Below are positions 4,190 through 34,961 of a stretch of DNA of 64,000 nucleotides, piece by piece (within the stretch, counting starts at the first letter, position 1; every line of letters begins with the position of its first letter). The notes under the pieces are model-generated. The model did not search any database. It was given only the letters and a program-made list of their open reading frames with translations, and was not told the origin of the DNA. The position numbers and the translations under genes were made by a program. This stretch comes from Planctomycetaceae bacterium (GTDB taxonomy: Bacteria; Planctomycetota; Planctomycetia; Pirellulales; Pirellulaceae): NCBI GenBank assembly GCA_027487485.1, contig JAIYDN010000048.1, positions 1-64,000 of the forward strand, read 5' to 3'.

Positions 4190-5707
4190 ATGCTTGATCC
4201 AGTTTCCAACGCGAATCAAAAACATCGTATAGCTCAGGAATTCTTTTCAACTGTACCTATCGAACTTTGCCGCAAGCATTTGCTCTGCCTTGATACCGAG
4301 CATGATGAATCACTTCGTTTGTTGGTTTGCGACCTGACTCCGTCGTTTACAGCAGATTCCGTTCGAAGGCAATTGAGGACGTCGTTACCTACGGTTTGCG
4401 TTGATGAGCGTACTTTGCGAGAAAAGATTGACAAAGCATTCGAGGTATTTCGCGCGACGGGGGGATCGGCCAACCAATCGGAAACAATCTTGGATACAGC
4501 CGCAGAACGAGTCGTATTAACAGCCAATGACGATTCGATGGACTTGCTTCAGGATCAATCGGAATCTCCTGTCATCGATGTCGTGAATCGGATCTTGTTC
4601 GAGGCTGTCCAGCAGCAAGCATCGGATATTCACTTTCAACCAAATGAGCAATCACTGACGGTAAGAATGCGAATGGACGGTGTACTGTTTGACGTACGGG
4701 ATGTTCCCAAAAGCTTGCAGGAAGAAGTACTCACTCGGATCAAAGTAGCTGGACGGATGGACATCGCTGAAAAGCGATTACCTCAAGACGGCCGGGCAAC
4801 GGTCCGTGTGGGCTCGCGTGTGATCGATTTGCGGATTGCGTCGATGCCATCTAGTCATGGGGAACGTATCGTTGTTCGATTGCTCGATAAGAGTGCAAGG
4901 CTGTATCAGCTTAAAGAGCTTGGGATGGACCCGCTGTCGCTCGAGCGGTTTCGCAACGCGATCTCCGTCGAGCATGGATTGATTCTAGTGACCGGCCCAA
5001 CCGGCAGTGGTAAAAGTACGACTCTCTATTCGGCCCTTCAGGAACTGGATACGACCGAACGCAATGCGGTGACGCTCGAAGATCCGATTGAGTACCAGCT
5101 AGTGGGTGTTTCGCAGACTCAGATCAATCTTAAGAAGGGGATGACGTTTGCAAGCGGACTGCGGAGCGTGCTCCGGCAAGACCCGGACATCATCATGGTG
5201 GGGGAGATACGAGATGCAGAAACGGCCATGATGGCGGTTCAAGCAGCTCTGACTGGGCACTTGGTGTTTAGTACGTTGCATACTAATGATGCAGCAAGCG
5301 CGGTGACGCGGATGATGGATTTGGGGATTGAGCCCTATCTGTTGGCTAGTAGTTTGGTTTCGGTTTTGGCTCAACGGTTGGTGAGGAGGGTTTGTTCGTG
5401 TGGGTTGAGAGTTGAGGGTTTAGGGTTGAGAGTGGAGGGAGAGCAGACGATTGAGGGTGGGAAGGTGGTGGGGTGTTTGGCTTGTCGGGGGACGGGGTAT
5501 AAGGGGCGGTTGGGGATTTATGAACTGCTGATCGTGGACGAAGAGATTCGAGGTTTGATAACTCGGCGGGCACATTCGTCAGCTATCCGTGATGAAGCGG
5601 TTAAACAGGGGATGCAGTTGCTGAAGACTTCCGGGGAGATCAAAGTTGCAGAAGGGGTGACGTCGCGTGAAGAAGTGGAAAGGGTGACGATGAGGGCGAA
5701 AATGTAG
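4190..5707 (+). CDS. gspE: GspE/PilB-family secretion ATPase
   Basis: 505 residues. This family of hexameric ATPases drives pseudopilus assembly in type II secretion or pilus extension in type IV pili, on the inner face of the cytoplasmic membrane. The Walker A motif GPTGSGKST is at residues 269-277, the Asp-box region PDIIMVGEIRD is at 332-342, and a His box (TGHLVFSTLHTNDA) follows. A metal-binding tetracysteine lies near the C-terminus: C402-x-C404 and C429-x-x-C432 (GCLACRGTGYKGR). The loop between the Cys pairs, GLRVEGLGLRVEG, is encoded by a G-rich heptad repeat also found elsewhere in this window, so the zinc loop carries an in-frame insertion. The secretin gene converges from the right, which supports a secretion role. 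The family cannot be separated into type II versus type IV from this gene alone. Confidence 0.9.
   Translation: MLDPVSNANQKHRIAQEFFSTVPIELCRKHLLCLDTEHDESLRLLVCDLTPSFTADSVRRQLRTSLPTVCVDERTLREKIDKAFEVFRATGGSANQSETILDTAAERVVLTANDDSMDLLQDQSESPVIDVVNRILFEAVQQQASDIHFQPNEQSLTVRMRMDGVLFDVRDVPKSLQEEVLTRIKVAGRMDIAEKRLPQDGRATVRVGSRVIDLRIASMPSSHGERIVVRLLDKSARLYQLKELGMDPLSLERFRNAISVEHGLILVTGPTGSGKSTTLYSALQELDTTERNAVTLEDPIEYQLVGVSQTQINLKKGMTFASGLRSVLRQDPDIIMVGEIRDAETAMMAVQAALTGHLVFSTLHTNDAASAVTRMMDLGIEPYLLASSLVSVLAQRLVRRVCSCGLRVEGLGLRVEGEQTIEGGKVVGCLACRGTGYKGRLGIYELLIVDEEIRGLITRRAHSSAIRDEAVKQGMQLLKTSGEIKVAEGVTSREEVERVTMRAKM
5402..5457 (+). repeat. G-rich heptad repeat inside gspE
   Basis: Degenerate 7-nt units TTGAGAG, TTGAGGG, TTTAGGG and TTGAGAG run in tandem within the coding sequence and keep the reading frame, giving the protein repeat LRVEG-LGLRVEG. 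The same units recur at 5708-5760, 6170-6205 and 7163-7215. Confidence 0.8.
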
Positions 5708-5760
5708 GTTGGTTTAGGGTTGAGGGTGAACAGCCAACACTTGGTTGAGGGTTTAGGGAT
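5708..5760 (+). repeat. G-rich heptad repeat copy left of the four-helix-bundle gene
   Basis: Directly after the gspE stop codon the sequence carries GGTTTAGGGTTGAGGG and, after a short spacer, GGTTGAGGGTTTAGGG. Runs of three G are spaced by four bases as in telomere-type repeats. The orientation matches the copy in gspE. Confidence 0.75.
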
Positions 5761-5792
5761 ATGAGTTATTAGGCGAGTTGGGAGACTTGGAT

Positions 5793-6152
5793 ATGTTCGG
5801 ATTTGAGAAGCTTGACGTTTGGCGGATGTCTGTAGATTTTGCCACTAGTATTTATGAGCATACAAGCAAGTTCCCAGACCACGAAAAGTTTGGACTCAGC
5901 AATCAACTGAGGCGAGCGTCGGTATCGATCTCGTCCAATATTGCCGAAGGGAGCGGCCGTAATTCACCGAGCGACTTCGGACGATTCGTGAGTATTGCAT
6001 ATGGTTCCTTGATGGAGAGTGTTTCGCAACTCCACATCGCTGCTCGATTGAAGTACATTGACGAGAGTTCGCTCAATCAACTTTTTACTCAGGCTGAATC
6101 TATCGCCAAGATGCTGAGCCGCCTTCGGTCTAGCTTGAAAGAAAACCCATAG
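5793..6152 (+). CDS. Four-helix-bundle protein (23S rRNA intervening-sequence / S23 family)
   Basis: 119 residues from the ATG at 5793, which is preferred over an upstream in-frame TTG at 5778. The sequence FEKLDVWRMSVDF...IYEHTSKFPDHEKFGLSNQLRRASVSISSNIAEGSGR matches the four-helix-bundle family first described from 23S rRNA intervening sequences and related to the bAvd accessory proteins of diversity-generating retroelements. The motif SNIAEGSGR is the family hallmark. Family members form small helical oligomers and their cellular role is poorly known. No reverse transcriptase lies near it. The gene is bracketed by heptad-repeat copies in opposite orientation and sits between two converging secretion genes, so gene plus repeats look like an inserted cassette (inference). 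Confidence 0.85.
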   Translation: MFGFEKLDVWRMSVDFATSIYEHTSKFPDHEKFGLSNQLRRASVSISSNIAEGSGRNSPSDFGRFVSIAYGSLMESVSQLHIAARLKYIDESSLNQLFTQAESIAKMLSRLRSSLKENP

Positions 6153-6169
6153 CGCTTTTAAGATTTTGC

Positions 6170-6205
6170 CGCCTCAACCCTCAACTCTAAACCCTCAACC
6201 CTAAC
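6170..6205 (-). repeat. Heptad repeat copy right of the four-helix-bundle gene, inverted
   Basis: On the plus strand this reads as C-rich units (CTCAACC, CTCAACT, CTAAACC, CTCAACC, CTAACC), the reverse complement of the copy at 5708-5760. It directly abuts the gspD stop codon at 6206. Confidence 0.8.
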
Positions 6206-8680
6206 CTACTTCATCATCACCGGTGAGCTGGCGGGGAAGTTGTGACCGTCGTCGGCGTGATTCGAGGATCGCTTTGACAAGAATTTCAAGTCGCGAAACT
6301 TGTCTTCCTCTAGAATGATCGGCCGCAAAAATACGAAGAGCGAATTATCGCGATTGCTGTTGGTGGTTAGACTTGTTATGTCGCGAATGATGGGGATACG
6401 CTCCAAATATGGAATCCCGTTCAGACTTGACGAAACGTTTTTCTGGGTGAGTCCGCCTACGATGATTGTGTAACCATCGGGGACAGTAACACGGGAGCTG
6501 ATCTCGTTGGTTTGGCGAGGTGGTGGTACTCCGGCGGATCCAGAACCTGTAAAAGAGTTCAATGTTACGTTGTAGTCGAGATTAACGTGCTTACCCTCGC
6601 TGATGGTAGGAGTGACGGTAATGGACGTACCCGCTTTGGCAAATCCTGCAAAACTGGTGGTTGCTACTGTTTGCGAGGCATTGACGCTCGTAAAGGGGAC
6701 TTCATTAACGCTTTCCAATGTCCCTTCAGCATTGTCGTCTACGAGGATCTTAGGTGAGCTCAGAACTCGCGATCTTCGATGGGCTGCGAGTGCGCGGACG
6801 ACAATGTCGGCTGTTTGTGGATCTACCAAGGCAGCGTTAAAGCCAGTACCAGGCGTAATCGCTAAGGACCCGTTGGTAGGTGTGACGGTGCTGAGCCCAT
6901 AACTGCTGAATGAGAATAATCTTCGAGCACCAGTTCGATCCCCTCCGGATACTTCTACCCCGAGTGTATAGTCGTCGGTAGTGTCGATGATCACGATACG
7001 AGCCTCGATCATGACTTGCGGGCGTCGCTTGTCCAGGAACTCAATCAGTTGTTGGTAGGCTTGCTGAACTTCCGGTTCGGCAATGATGATCAGTGTGTTG
7101 CTACCTAGATCGGCGGTGACTTGAGCGTTACCCAATGGGGATTGGATGCCTCGTTCATAAAACTGAGGGTTTAGAGGGAGTTGAGAGTTGAGGGGTGAGA
7201 GTTGAGGGTTGAGGCCAAAACCGTTAAAGCCAGCCCCAAAAGTAAATTGGCCGTTTTGATTGTTGTTGAAATTGGGATTGTTTGTGTTAACGTCGACTAA
7301 CCCGTTTCGTTGAGTGGCGAGAGGGAACGGCGCGACAAGGCCTGGCTGTGCGGTGTTGGCCCCGACAACGAAGGGATTATTGGGGCCCGTGACGGCTCGG
7401 TCGTTTGTCGTTCGGCCACGTTGCTGCTGACCACTGTTACGATTGTTTTGAAACGGGTTCTGCCCGAATCCACCCTGAAGGCTGTTTAGTGTTTCGAGAA
7501 TGTCTTGGACAGGGACGTTTTTGATCTCGTAGAAGCGGATCGGGCTTTGCCGAGCACTCGTTTCGCGGGAATCGAATTGTGGAATGAGTTTTGCGATTTG
7601 CTGTTGTACCAATTCTGTCGTTGAAACAACCAATTGTGCCCCTTCAACCCGAGAGTCGTAATTTGGCTTCGGGGATTGGGAATCGACCCATTGCTGGAGA
7701 ATTTCTTCGAGTTGCTTCGGACTAATGAATTGTGGCCGATAGCTTTGAGTTGATGTCGCGAGTGGAACGTCAAGAGACTTCAAGAGCTCGATGGCTGCTT
7801 GGATCTGTGAGGGAAGACCGATCAGGATCAGCTGGCTTGTGCGGGGTTCGACGGCAATTTCGATTCCAGGTGCTGATCGAATTGAATTGGAGTCGTTGGA
7901 GTTTGGGCCGCCGTTTCCGCCCGCGGCAGGCTGACCATCCGCTCGGGCTCGGGCGGCCAGGATCGATTGCAGCCGCTGGGCCAATTCGTCGACGGTAACG
8001 TGCTCGGCCCGGACAAATCGGATGGACGATGTGTTTTGCTCGGCGTCTAGAATATCGATGAGCCGTTGGATACGTTTGAGGTTGTTGGTGGTGTCAGTGA
8101 CGATCAGCGTTCGGTTTGCAGGTACAGCGATCGTGTTGGCTCCTGCGCCAGTGAGGAAGGGACCGATGAGCGTTTTGATTTGGTTTGGGTCTCCTCGTTT
8201 TAGCGAGAAGACTTGTGTCACTGGAATGGCAGGTCCGAGGCGATCTAGTTCCGCGTTGGTCGGGGTTGGTAGGGAAACCTGCGGCATACTTGCCAAAGGA
8301 ACGATCTTGTACCAGTTTGGGGTTTCTGTTTGGGCGACAGCAAAGCCGTTGAACTGTAGTGCGCTTTGCAGCAAATTGAACAAACTGTCGACAGGTAATT
8401 CGTCTGGTACCTGGAGATTGATTTTCTTTTGGTTCAGTGTTTCATCATACAGGAAGCGGATGTTCAGACGCTGACTAATGTATTCTACTAGCGTGACCAT
8501 TGGCGTCTCGCCTCGGAGATTGATTCGAATCGTCGATGTTTTTGGATCGGTGGGGGCCTGAGTTGCGACAGGCCGAAGGGGCTGGGGTTGAGCATGTGCG
8601 ACCGACATAAGCAATATACCATTCCCCAGTACAAAAGCGAACAGAAGAACCCTCAAACGATGCGAATACAAAGGGATCAT
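6206..8680 (-). CDS. gspD: GspD-like secretin (type II/III secretion system outer-membrane pore)
   Basis: 824 residues with an N-terminal signal peptide (residues 1-31, hydrophobic core LLFAFVLGNGILLMSVAHA). The protein has the modular N0/N1/N2/N3 periplasmic repeats (for example TRTLIVTDTTNNLKRIQRLIDILD at about 190-215), then the secretin pore domain with VTVPDGYTIIVGGLTQ and GIPYLERIPIIRDI near residues 740-775. Secretins form the outer-membrane channel for folded proteins or pili. Around residues 489-506 the chain reads NPQLSPLNSQLPLNPQ, encoded by the same G-rich heptad repeat found in gspE, inside a low-complexity Asn/Gln/Gly-rich linker before the pore domain. The start codon overlaps the stop of the upstream TPR lipoprotein gene by 4 nt (ATGA), indicating translational coupling. 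Confidence 0.92.
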   Translation of the reverse strand: MIPLYSHRLRVLLFAFVLGNGILLMSVAHAQPQPLRPVATQAPTDPKTSTIRINLRGETPMVTLVEYISQRLNIRFLYDETLNQKKINLQVPDELPVDSLFNLLQSALQFNGFAVAQTETPNWYKIVPLASMPQVSLPTPTNAELDRLGPAIPVTQVFSLKRGDPNQIKTLIGPFLTGAGANTIAVPANRTLIVTDTTNNLKRIQRLIDILDAEQNTSSIRFVRAEHVTVDELAQRLQSILAARARADGQPAAGGNGGPNSNDSNSIRSAPGIEIAVEPRTSQLILIGLPSQIQAAIELLKSLDVPLATSTQSYRPQFISPKQLEEILQQWVDSQSPKPNYDSRVEGAQLVVSTTELVQQQIAKLIPQFDSRETSARQSPIRFYEIKNVPVQDILETLNSLQGGFGQNPFQNNRNSGQQQRGRTTNDRAVTGPNNPFVVGANTAQPGLVAPFPLATQRNGLVDVNTNNPNFNNNQNGQFTFGAGFNGFGLNPQLSPLNSQLPLNPQFYERGIQSPLGNAQVTADLGSNTLIIIAEPEVQQAYQQLIEFLDKRRPQVMIEARIVIIDTTDDYTLGVEVSGGDRTGARRLFSFSSYGLSTVTPTNGSLAITPGTGFNAALVDPQTADIVVRALAAHRRSRVLSSPKILVDDNAEGTLESVNEVPFTSVNASQTVATTSFAGFAKAGTSITVTPTISEGKHVNLDYNVTLNSFTGSGSAGVPPPRQTNEISSRVTVPDGYTIIVGGLTQKNVSSSLNGIPYLERIPIIRDITSLTTNSNRDNSLFVFLRPIILEEDKFRDLKFLSKRSSNHADDGHNFPASSPVMMK
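7163..7215 (+). repeat. Heptad repeat copy inside gspD
   Basis: Plus-strand units CTGAGGG, TTTAGAG, TTGAGAG, TTGAGGG and TTGAGGG run in tandem with small gaps. The gspD frame reads through on the opposite strand and gives the LNPQLSPLNSQLPLNPQ segment. Units are more degenerate than the intergenic copies. Confidence 0.75.
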
Positions 8681-34740: not shown

Positions 34741-34770
34741 CCTGATTGGCTAGGCGAGCACTGCTTGTAG

Positions 34771-34961
34771 CTTGCAGTTGTGCGCTCCGCCGAGATAAAC
34801 TCGACGGAAGCGAAATTCCGAGTGGTGCTGGTGGGCTTGGTAGCTTGCAGTTGTGCGGTCCGCCGAGATGAACTCGACGGAAGCGGAATTCCGGGCGGTG
34901 CTGATGGGCTTGGTAGCTTGCAGTTGTGCGTTCCGCCGAGATGAACTCGACGGAAGCGGCC
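34771..34961. repeat. 73-bp tandem repeat, 2.6 copies, with internal hairpin
   Basis: Units begin at 34771, 34844 and 34917 with CTTGCAGTTGTGCG and differ at a few positions only. Each unit contains CCGCCGAG-ATGAA-CTCGACGG (first copy ATAAA), a hairpin with one mismatch. It sits between two convergent genes and could work as a bidirectional terminator. Confidence 0.85.

Follow-up and report, generated by a model that had tools for sequence, protein, structure and literature searches.

The S23 gene between gspE and gspD

The window, as we call the whole 64,000-nt stretch of planctomycete DNA analysed here, carries gspE, encoding the type II secretion ATPase (4190–5707, forward strand; PF00437, E = 4.5e-130), and gspD, encoding the secretin (6206–8680, reverse strand; PF00263, E = 1.9e-32; TIGR02517). 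The spacer between their stop codons is filled by two arms of G-rich heptads with a small gene between them (5793–6152, forward strand). The upstream arm (5712–5760, forward; GTTTAGG GTTGAGG ... GTTGAGG GTTTAGG) starts directly 3' of the gspE stop codon, and the downstream arm (6172–6206, reverse; GTTGAGG-GTTTAGA-GTTGAGG-GTTGAGG), inverted relative to the first and with its half-site at 6172–6199, reaches the gspD stop codon. Two further, single half-sites lie within the flanking genes, one in the gspE linker between two Cys pairs (5405–5438, forward; a 28-nt match with three mismatches at 5411–5438) and one in an N/Q-rich linker of gspD (7178–7215, forward; a 28-nt match with two mismatches at 7187–7214). 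The first-pass annotation had described four clusters of TTGAGGG, TTTAGGG and TTGAGAG type at these places, and we confirm them, as we do its observation that the reading frames of gspE and gspD stay open through their clusters; it was also right that the small gene is flanked in opposite orientations, the arms being inverted around it, and missed what that gene encodes.

The product, 119 aa from the ATG at 5793 (an in-frame TTG lies at 5778), is an S23 or four-helix-bundle protein. PF05635 is its sole Pfam match (E = 8.8e-38, 129.2 bits against a cut-off of 33.8), TIGR02436 agrees (E = 1.1e-36, 125.3 bits, cut-off 24), and the nearest solved structure is 2gsc, XCC0516 of Xanthomonas campestris (E = 8.1e-25), whose structure paper speaks in its title of five four-helix bundles. 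A core NIAEG with flanking Q, R, S and E forms invariant columns across 28 aligned proteins, that of the window among them (28 of 40 were kept, those left out being one with a stop codon and 11 others). To our knowledge, S23 has no catalytic activity or catalytic domain, and we observed no transposition, both of which count against the mobile-element reading developed below. According to PMC10053308, the family takes its name from ORFs within 23S rRNA intervening sequences and is similar to the Avd protein of diversity-generating retroelements. S23 is present in 75 of 100 genomes of the window's family. The window's own genome has three further S23 matches (L011–L013), of which that on contig C14 has TAAGGGG-type heptads of its own, and those on C74 and C71 are weaker and have an internal stop, the C74 match adjoining GTGCTC repeats. 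A search for carriers gave no match among 50,697 phage records and 30 matches, mostly cyanobacterial, among 72,556 plasmid records.

A search of the 114 contigs of the genome (7.49 Mb) for two exact adjacent units (TTKAGRGTTKAGRG) gives nine matches, eight of them in the window and one on contig C35, as compared to a single match for the reversed control of this pattern. The 28-nt half-site, taken as a query from the window's downstream arm and allowed up to three mismatches, is found three times in the 7.49 Mb, always in the window (6172–6199 reverse, 7187–7214 forward and 5411–5438 forward), and its reversed control not at all. Because genome matches are confined almost wholly to the window and the controls are near zero, the heptads are far beyond chance and strictly local; and because the copies in gspE and gspD both match the 28-nt half-site, we regard them as copies of the arm. 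Absence of the heptads from the rest of the genome had been named beforehand as a result that would refute the observation; near-absence is what we find, yet a local element, rather than ordinary protein sequence, accounts for the pattern. Genome-wide spread of the window's own unit was sought in the 7.49 Mb and not found, which counts against the mobile-element reading developed below. On C35, near 8181 (L001), the match belongs to a solitary degenerate array of this unit, GTTGAGGGGTTGAGAGTTGAGGGCTGAGGG, with no inverted partner in the 320 nt inspected.

The closest orthologous locus, L194 of the same genus, is 87% identical over the part of GspE searched and has gspE and gspD arranged as in the window, with ∼260 nt between the aligned ends as compared to ∼510 nt in the window. 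L194 has no S23 gene, and no heptads in its spacer, gspE or gspD, so that the homolog comparison proposed in the first-pass annotation finds the segments absent from a close relative. The linkers that hold the two coding copies differ in both length and sequence among the relatives compared. A clean in-frame insertion into gspE or gspD is accordingly unsupported, the host stretches being linkers of unequal length. Since both coding copies fall in such variable linkers, their survival in frame need not imply selection on the repeats. The earlier inference is right in so far as the state is a derived one.

Predicted as RNA, the window element folds into a structure closed by the arms as a stem (z = −2.5; 1 of 100 shuffles equally stable). 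The canonical quadruplex motif (four G tracts of at least three, spaced by 1–7 nt) is in none of the four window clusters. The G-skew maxima of the 64 kb are the 150-nt intervals starting at 5371 and 5381 (skew 0.79), and within gspE the intervals with starts between 5311 and 5421 rank with the most C-poor and G-skewed. This C-poor, G/T-rich stretch of gspE (5311–5570) extends well past the heptads, and L194 there often has C-ending synonymous codons. Elsewhere in the window, 34763–34959 is a 73-nt tandem repeat (2.7 copies, 93% matches).

Arrays and their units at other S23 loci

We have collected other S23 loci by protein similarity alone: 33 from the window's own genome and its family, 80 from GTDB (the best 80 of 576, from many phyla) and 50 from viral contigs, of which 37 were used, 13 near-duplicates or fragments having been left out by hand. 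Arrays were scored as self-match at a given lag, at least 18 of 28. Within 200 nt of the 80 GTDB genes, lag 7 scores upstream at 41, downstream at 34 and on both sides at 29, and lag 8 at 10, 9 and 5, respectively; lag 14, a multiple of 7, scores at 26, 24 and 11, and the other lags at no more than three loci (lags 4–6 and 9–13) or four (lag 15). Some S23 genes among the 80 have no scored array, a point against the mobile-element reading. The arms lie near the ends of the S23 gene: at the GTDB loci, lag-7 positions number 75 per kb within 100 nt, 9 per kb between 100 and 200 nt and 1.7–5.3 per kb further out. The same lag is scored upstream at 24, downstream at 22 and on both sides at 17 of the 33 loci of the window's family, and at 30, 17 and 17 of the 37 viral loci.

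Control ORFs of the same loci gave a measure of background (74 of the 80 GTDB loci used). With lags 7 and 8 taken together, arrays lie within 200 nt upstream of 47, downstream of 40 and on both sides of 34 of 74 S23 genes, as compared to 51, 62 and 18 of 480 control ORFs. Inversion was assessed from 8-mers (76 of 80 loci): the upstream flank shares at least three with the reverse-complemented downstream flank at 54 of 76 loci; when the two flanks are compared in direct orientation the number is 19 of 76, and for pairs of flanks from different loci it is 9%. The corresponding figures against control ORFs are 52 of 74 and 120 of 480, and because control ORFs reach this level the background of the mark is not small. 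Half-sites are about four units long: over 151 of them, the next two units share 5.4 and 5.4 of 7 positions with the innermost one and those after them 3.7 and 2.5, a drop that is partly built in, since entry required a match in one of the next two heptads. The inward-reading strand of the arms has G over C in 122 of 141 cases, and the canonical quadruplex motif occurs in 9 of the 141 arms of these other loci. Genomes G244 and G258 had suggested that degeneracy always falls on the second heptad; this fails as a rule, with H1 > H2 in 60 and H2 > H1 in 58 of the 151 half-sites.

Individual loci show the range of settings. In Anabaena sp. 90, heptad arms lie on both sides of an S23 gene flanked by cas6 and cas4, and in Nostoc edaphicum on both sides of one between two ribonucleotide reductase subunit genes; three other cyanobacterial plasmid loci have an array scored upstream only. 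At seven of 12 long planctomycete loci (L051–L055, L058 and L061), each with 3 to 29 tRNA genes, the S23 genes and heptad arrays are interspersed with these, one tRNA array holding several S23 genes. Nine loci of the family of G137 (L225, L247, L249, L251, L252, L254–L256 and L266) have the array upstream only and share a conserved downstream flank, which we take to resemble the start of carB. Genome G091 (L043–L048) has a 612-bp element with an S23-like ORF as its only ORF, in seven full copies, the others 95.9–99.5% like the first, with sharp ends, differing flanks and inverted GTGCTC hexamers in place of heptads; of all the observations, it points most clearly to an S23 gene being able to move with no partner gene, and we treat it as a separate branch.

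Units vary widely among S23 loci, and many have no G-tract. They vary with the protein: over 144 of 150 loci, flank similarity correlates with S23 protein identity at r = 0.31, the best of 1000 permutations reaching 0.06. Flanks 1 kb away give r = 0.12 (best permutation again 0.06) and thus also beat the permutations, a sign of shared taxonomy. When only pairs from different phyla are compared (107 of 113 loci, with record titles used to set the phyla by hand), the correlation close to the S23 gene is r = 0.17, the best permutation reaching 0.09; at 1 kb it is 0.001, a value that 470 of 1000 permutations equal or exceed. GTTGAG-type units accompany the proteins nearest to that of the window, in Verrucomicrobia (L063, L064 and L067) and Planctomycetes (L065, L016 and L017); L066, a Bacteroidia locus among the closest proteins, is without the GTTGAG unit and speaks against the tie, its contig ending behind the gene. 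From these sequence comparisons, we think it probable that each S23 lineage has a unit of its own, which is inherited along with the protein.

Dispersed arrays and gene-less copies

Own-unit clusters more than 200 nt from the S23 gene are found at 20 of 36 loci (of the 80), a cluster count that has no control. The 8-mers of a locus's own unit occur at 4.1–7.3 per kb between 200 and 2000 nt from its S23 gene, as compared to 2.3–2.6 for the units of other loci, and further out approach the control. Wider dispersal is found in the family of G137, a Pseudoxanthomonas (the genome of L073) whose S23 gene has GGGACCG units and which has 219 overlapping matches to three GGGRNNS units followed by GGG, as compared to 5 for the control. 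S23 is present in 64 of the 149 genomes of this family. At least 10 net matches of the G-rich heptad pattern are found in 49 of the 64 genomes with S23, as compared to 12 of the 85 without (Fisher p = 9e-15, kinship ignored), and the medians are 87.5 and 0. With one S23 locus taken per genome (n = 30), the S23 flank contains the pattern core in 16 of the 21 genomes that reach 10 net matches and in one of the nine that do not.

Some genomes in this family run against the link. At least 10 net matches occur in the 12 S23-negative genomes just counted, 15 S23-positive genomes have fewer, and in 5 of the 21 array-rich genomes the one S23 flank examined is without the pattern. Of the 15 low-match genomes, another abundant unit is found in only five, the remaining 10 being unaccounted for. 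Two further patterns, GGAASKA and AGGGMWT, were chosen from units beside S23 in exception genomes, and in those tested the dispersed unit is the unit beside S23. GGAASKA is most frequent of all 149 genomes in G204 (83 matches), followed by G269 (40), G137 (38), G244 (21, all GGAAGTA), G258 (16) and G144 (15); nine genomes have at least five matches, eight of them with S23 and the ninth (G153) without. AGGGMWT, whose reversed control fits another unit and so serves as no control, is highest in G287 (37 matches), mostly in two long arrays, which counts against the link. The spread predicted for the unit of G174 (AGGGCTT) failed, its three matches all lying at the S23 gene.

The dispersed copies have a definite form. 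All 20 sites inspected in G244 and G258 are hairpins, in which a heptad arm and a short tail are followed by a loop of ∼25 to 100 nt and then the inverse, and the same arm adjoins the S23 gene of G244. Among close opposite-strand neighbour arrays (entered by hand), 14 point inward and none outward. In the DUF4159–moxR spacer, aligned for 14 of 27 genomes, a hairpin is present in four, and the other 10 have a short spacer without it. The four carriers, which are related genomes, have four different unit variants at this one site. Of two other copies in G303, one has GGAACTA, like that genome's moxR copy, and the other GGAAATA/GGAGATA; neither has the GGAAGTA of G244. The variant differences at the moxR site and among the G303 copies (L305–L308, L335 and L336) hint at concerted change of arrays within a genome, as if they were rewritten genome by genome.

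Interpretation and comparison with known systems

The reading that we favor, and hold to be probable, is that the window locus is one member of a widespread group of small mobile elements, each consisting of an S23 (Avd-like) gene inside two inverted arms of about four 7- or 8-nt units, from which gene-less copies spread. Its architecture, the inversion of the arms, the tie of unit to protein, the co-occurrence with dispersed arrays and the presence or absence at orthologous sites are direct observations. In other hosts the gene-less copies, either two arms around a short loop or one arm, would have spread genome-wide; here the spread would have been local, into gspE and gspD. S23 may act in trans on its own arms, giving gene-bearing and gene-less forms much like RAYT and REPIN, without a transposase. 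An S23 oligomer could bind the G-rich, inward-reading strand of its arms and hold a hairpin, which the inverted arms can make either as single-stranded DNA or within the transcript; the hairpin might then be passed to a putative host or trans-acting polymerase, nuclease or reverse transcriptase and copied elsewhere. A bolder and rather unlikely version makes S23 the protein half of a bacterial repeat-writing system, in which each lineage would set its own 7- or 8-nt unit and arrays would be written or rewritten in place by templated copying of a telomerase-like or retroelement-like (DGR-like) kind, not by cut-and-paste, with 23S rRNA intervening sequences, the Xanthomonas and Nostoc heptamers and the window locus all as products. 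It is suggested by the DUF4159–moxR site, where hairpins of the same kind have four unit variants in four related genomes.

S23 could instead be an RNA- or DNA-binding regulator, with the arrays as binding sites multiplied by selection and its own arms serving autoregulation. The covariation of unit and protein would fit, as would the closeness of the arms to the ends of the S23 gene and the preference of heptamer sites in Xanthomonas and Nostoc for the vicinity of ORF ends, most being transcribed, in the account of Rehm 2015 (PMC4692102). We consider it unlikely all the same: half-sites sit in coding parts of gspE and gspD, hairpins have a clean empty site at DUF4159–moxR, all 14 close opposite-strand pairs point inward, and the same account could find no regulatory role. 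Still less likely, in our judgment, is that the arrays are made otherwise, by polymerase slippage or another mobile system, and that S23 genes are carried in or insert as passengers. Slippage with 7-nt steps has been proposed by others (cited in PMC4692102), and both gene-less hairpins and the array-rich S23-negative genomes would fit the passenger reading; against this, the unit follows S23 protein similarity across phyla and differs between genomes whose S23 proteins belong to different clades, inverted pairs are not produced by slippage, and the empty orthologous locus L194 has no arrays.

The first-pass annotation saw a telomere-like repeat whose point might be G-quadruplex formation. TTTAGGG does resemble telomere units, the inward strand of the arms is G-rich, and quadruplex folding in vitro is reported for G-rich heptamers from Xanthomonas and Nostoc (Rehm 2015, PMC4692102); yet the arms are internal, inverted and inward-pointing, their unit changes from locus to locus and often has no G-tract, and the canonical motif is as rare as given above, which leaves a quadruplex function very improbable and the telomere likeness without substance. 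That we are looking at ordinary variable protein linkers with chance repeats, as the position of both coding copies might suggest, is scarcely credible when one 28-nt half-site occurs three times in 1.8 kb and nowhere else in 7.49 Mb.

GGGNATC and GGGGAYT are the repeat units that Rehm 2015 reports from Xanthomonas and Nostoc, with four units preferred and convergent pairs numbering 70 and 75 in two Xanthomonas genomes and few in Nostoc (PMC4692102); the 7-nt unit, the preference for four and the convergent pair are shared with the window. That paper, as far as its text was available, names no protein partner, and the window's unit differs and is undispersed in its own genome; genome-wide spread of the Xanthomonas and Nostoc type is absent there and present in the family of G137. 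It also reports 83% of sites common to two Xanthomonas species and no general link to mobile elements, which speaks against mobility, so that movement of such elements would be slow at best, and says that the role of these abundant heptamers 'remains to be elucidated' (PMC4692102). The TAACTGA heptamers of Beggiatoaceae, Cyanobacteria and Bacteroidetes are likewise tandem heptads of patchy distribution, and no link to S23 was found in the available text of PMC4679880, where '23S' and 'helix bundle' have no occurrences. In the open PMC literature searched, no general link of S23 (PF05635) genes with heptad arrays is recognised. Avd is a homologous four-helix-bundle protein (PMC10053308), but unlike a diversity-generating retroelement the window element itself has no reverse transcriptase and no pair of template and variable repeats.

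If the mobile-element reading is true, it describes mobile elements of a kind that has no recognisable transposase, at loci from many phyla, and the S23 genes reported in cas loci (PMC3936711) would be insertions, not parts of CRISPR. It would tie together two old puzzles, one being the mobility of S23 intervening sequences and the role of S23 itself, the other the heptamers that abound in Xanthomonas and Nostoc, and the S23-element family may be the source of scattered bacterial repeats so far without explanation. Both puzzles are open to experiment: the protein nearest to that of the window, XCC0516 (2gsc), has a solved structure, and the repeat word can be read from the flanks of each S23 gene, so that swaps of the unit would test specificity.

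REPIN/RAYT systems, mostly a single gene flanked by its own repeat together with dispersed inverted doublets able to form hairpins (PMC3116915), offer the best working comparison. The repeat-flanked gene and the dispersed inverted doublets are alike, the latter being found in G244 and G258 and not in the window's genome. RAYT, however, is a tyrosine transposase acting with palindromic repeats, whereas here there are S23 and tandem-heptad arms, and because the protein differs the window element is not a member. In the 23S rRNA intervening sequence of Coxiella, tandem heptamers precede the S23 ORF, and the terminal stem, which RNase III cuts, measures 28 bp, the length of four heptads; the mobility of such sequences and the role of S23 are unclear according to this 2016 paper, which cites proposals of 1990 and 1993 (PMC4990558). 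The window element has the same S23 ORF between inverted terminal repeats of ∼28 bp (four-heptad arms), but lies between the protein genes gspE and gspD and not in rRNA. The portion of that source available does not describe, for 23S rRNA intervening sequences, a general heptad rule, units that track the protein or dispersed copies without the gene. What is new is the combination of a transposase-less helical-bundle gene, short-tandem-repeat ends of its own and dispersed hairpins, unpaired in the literature searched; on a cautious view, the window element is an intervening sequence of the 23S rRNA kind that lies outside rRNA.
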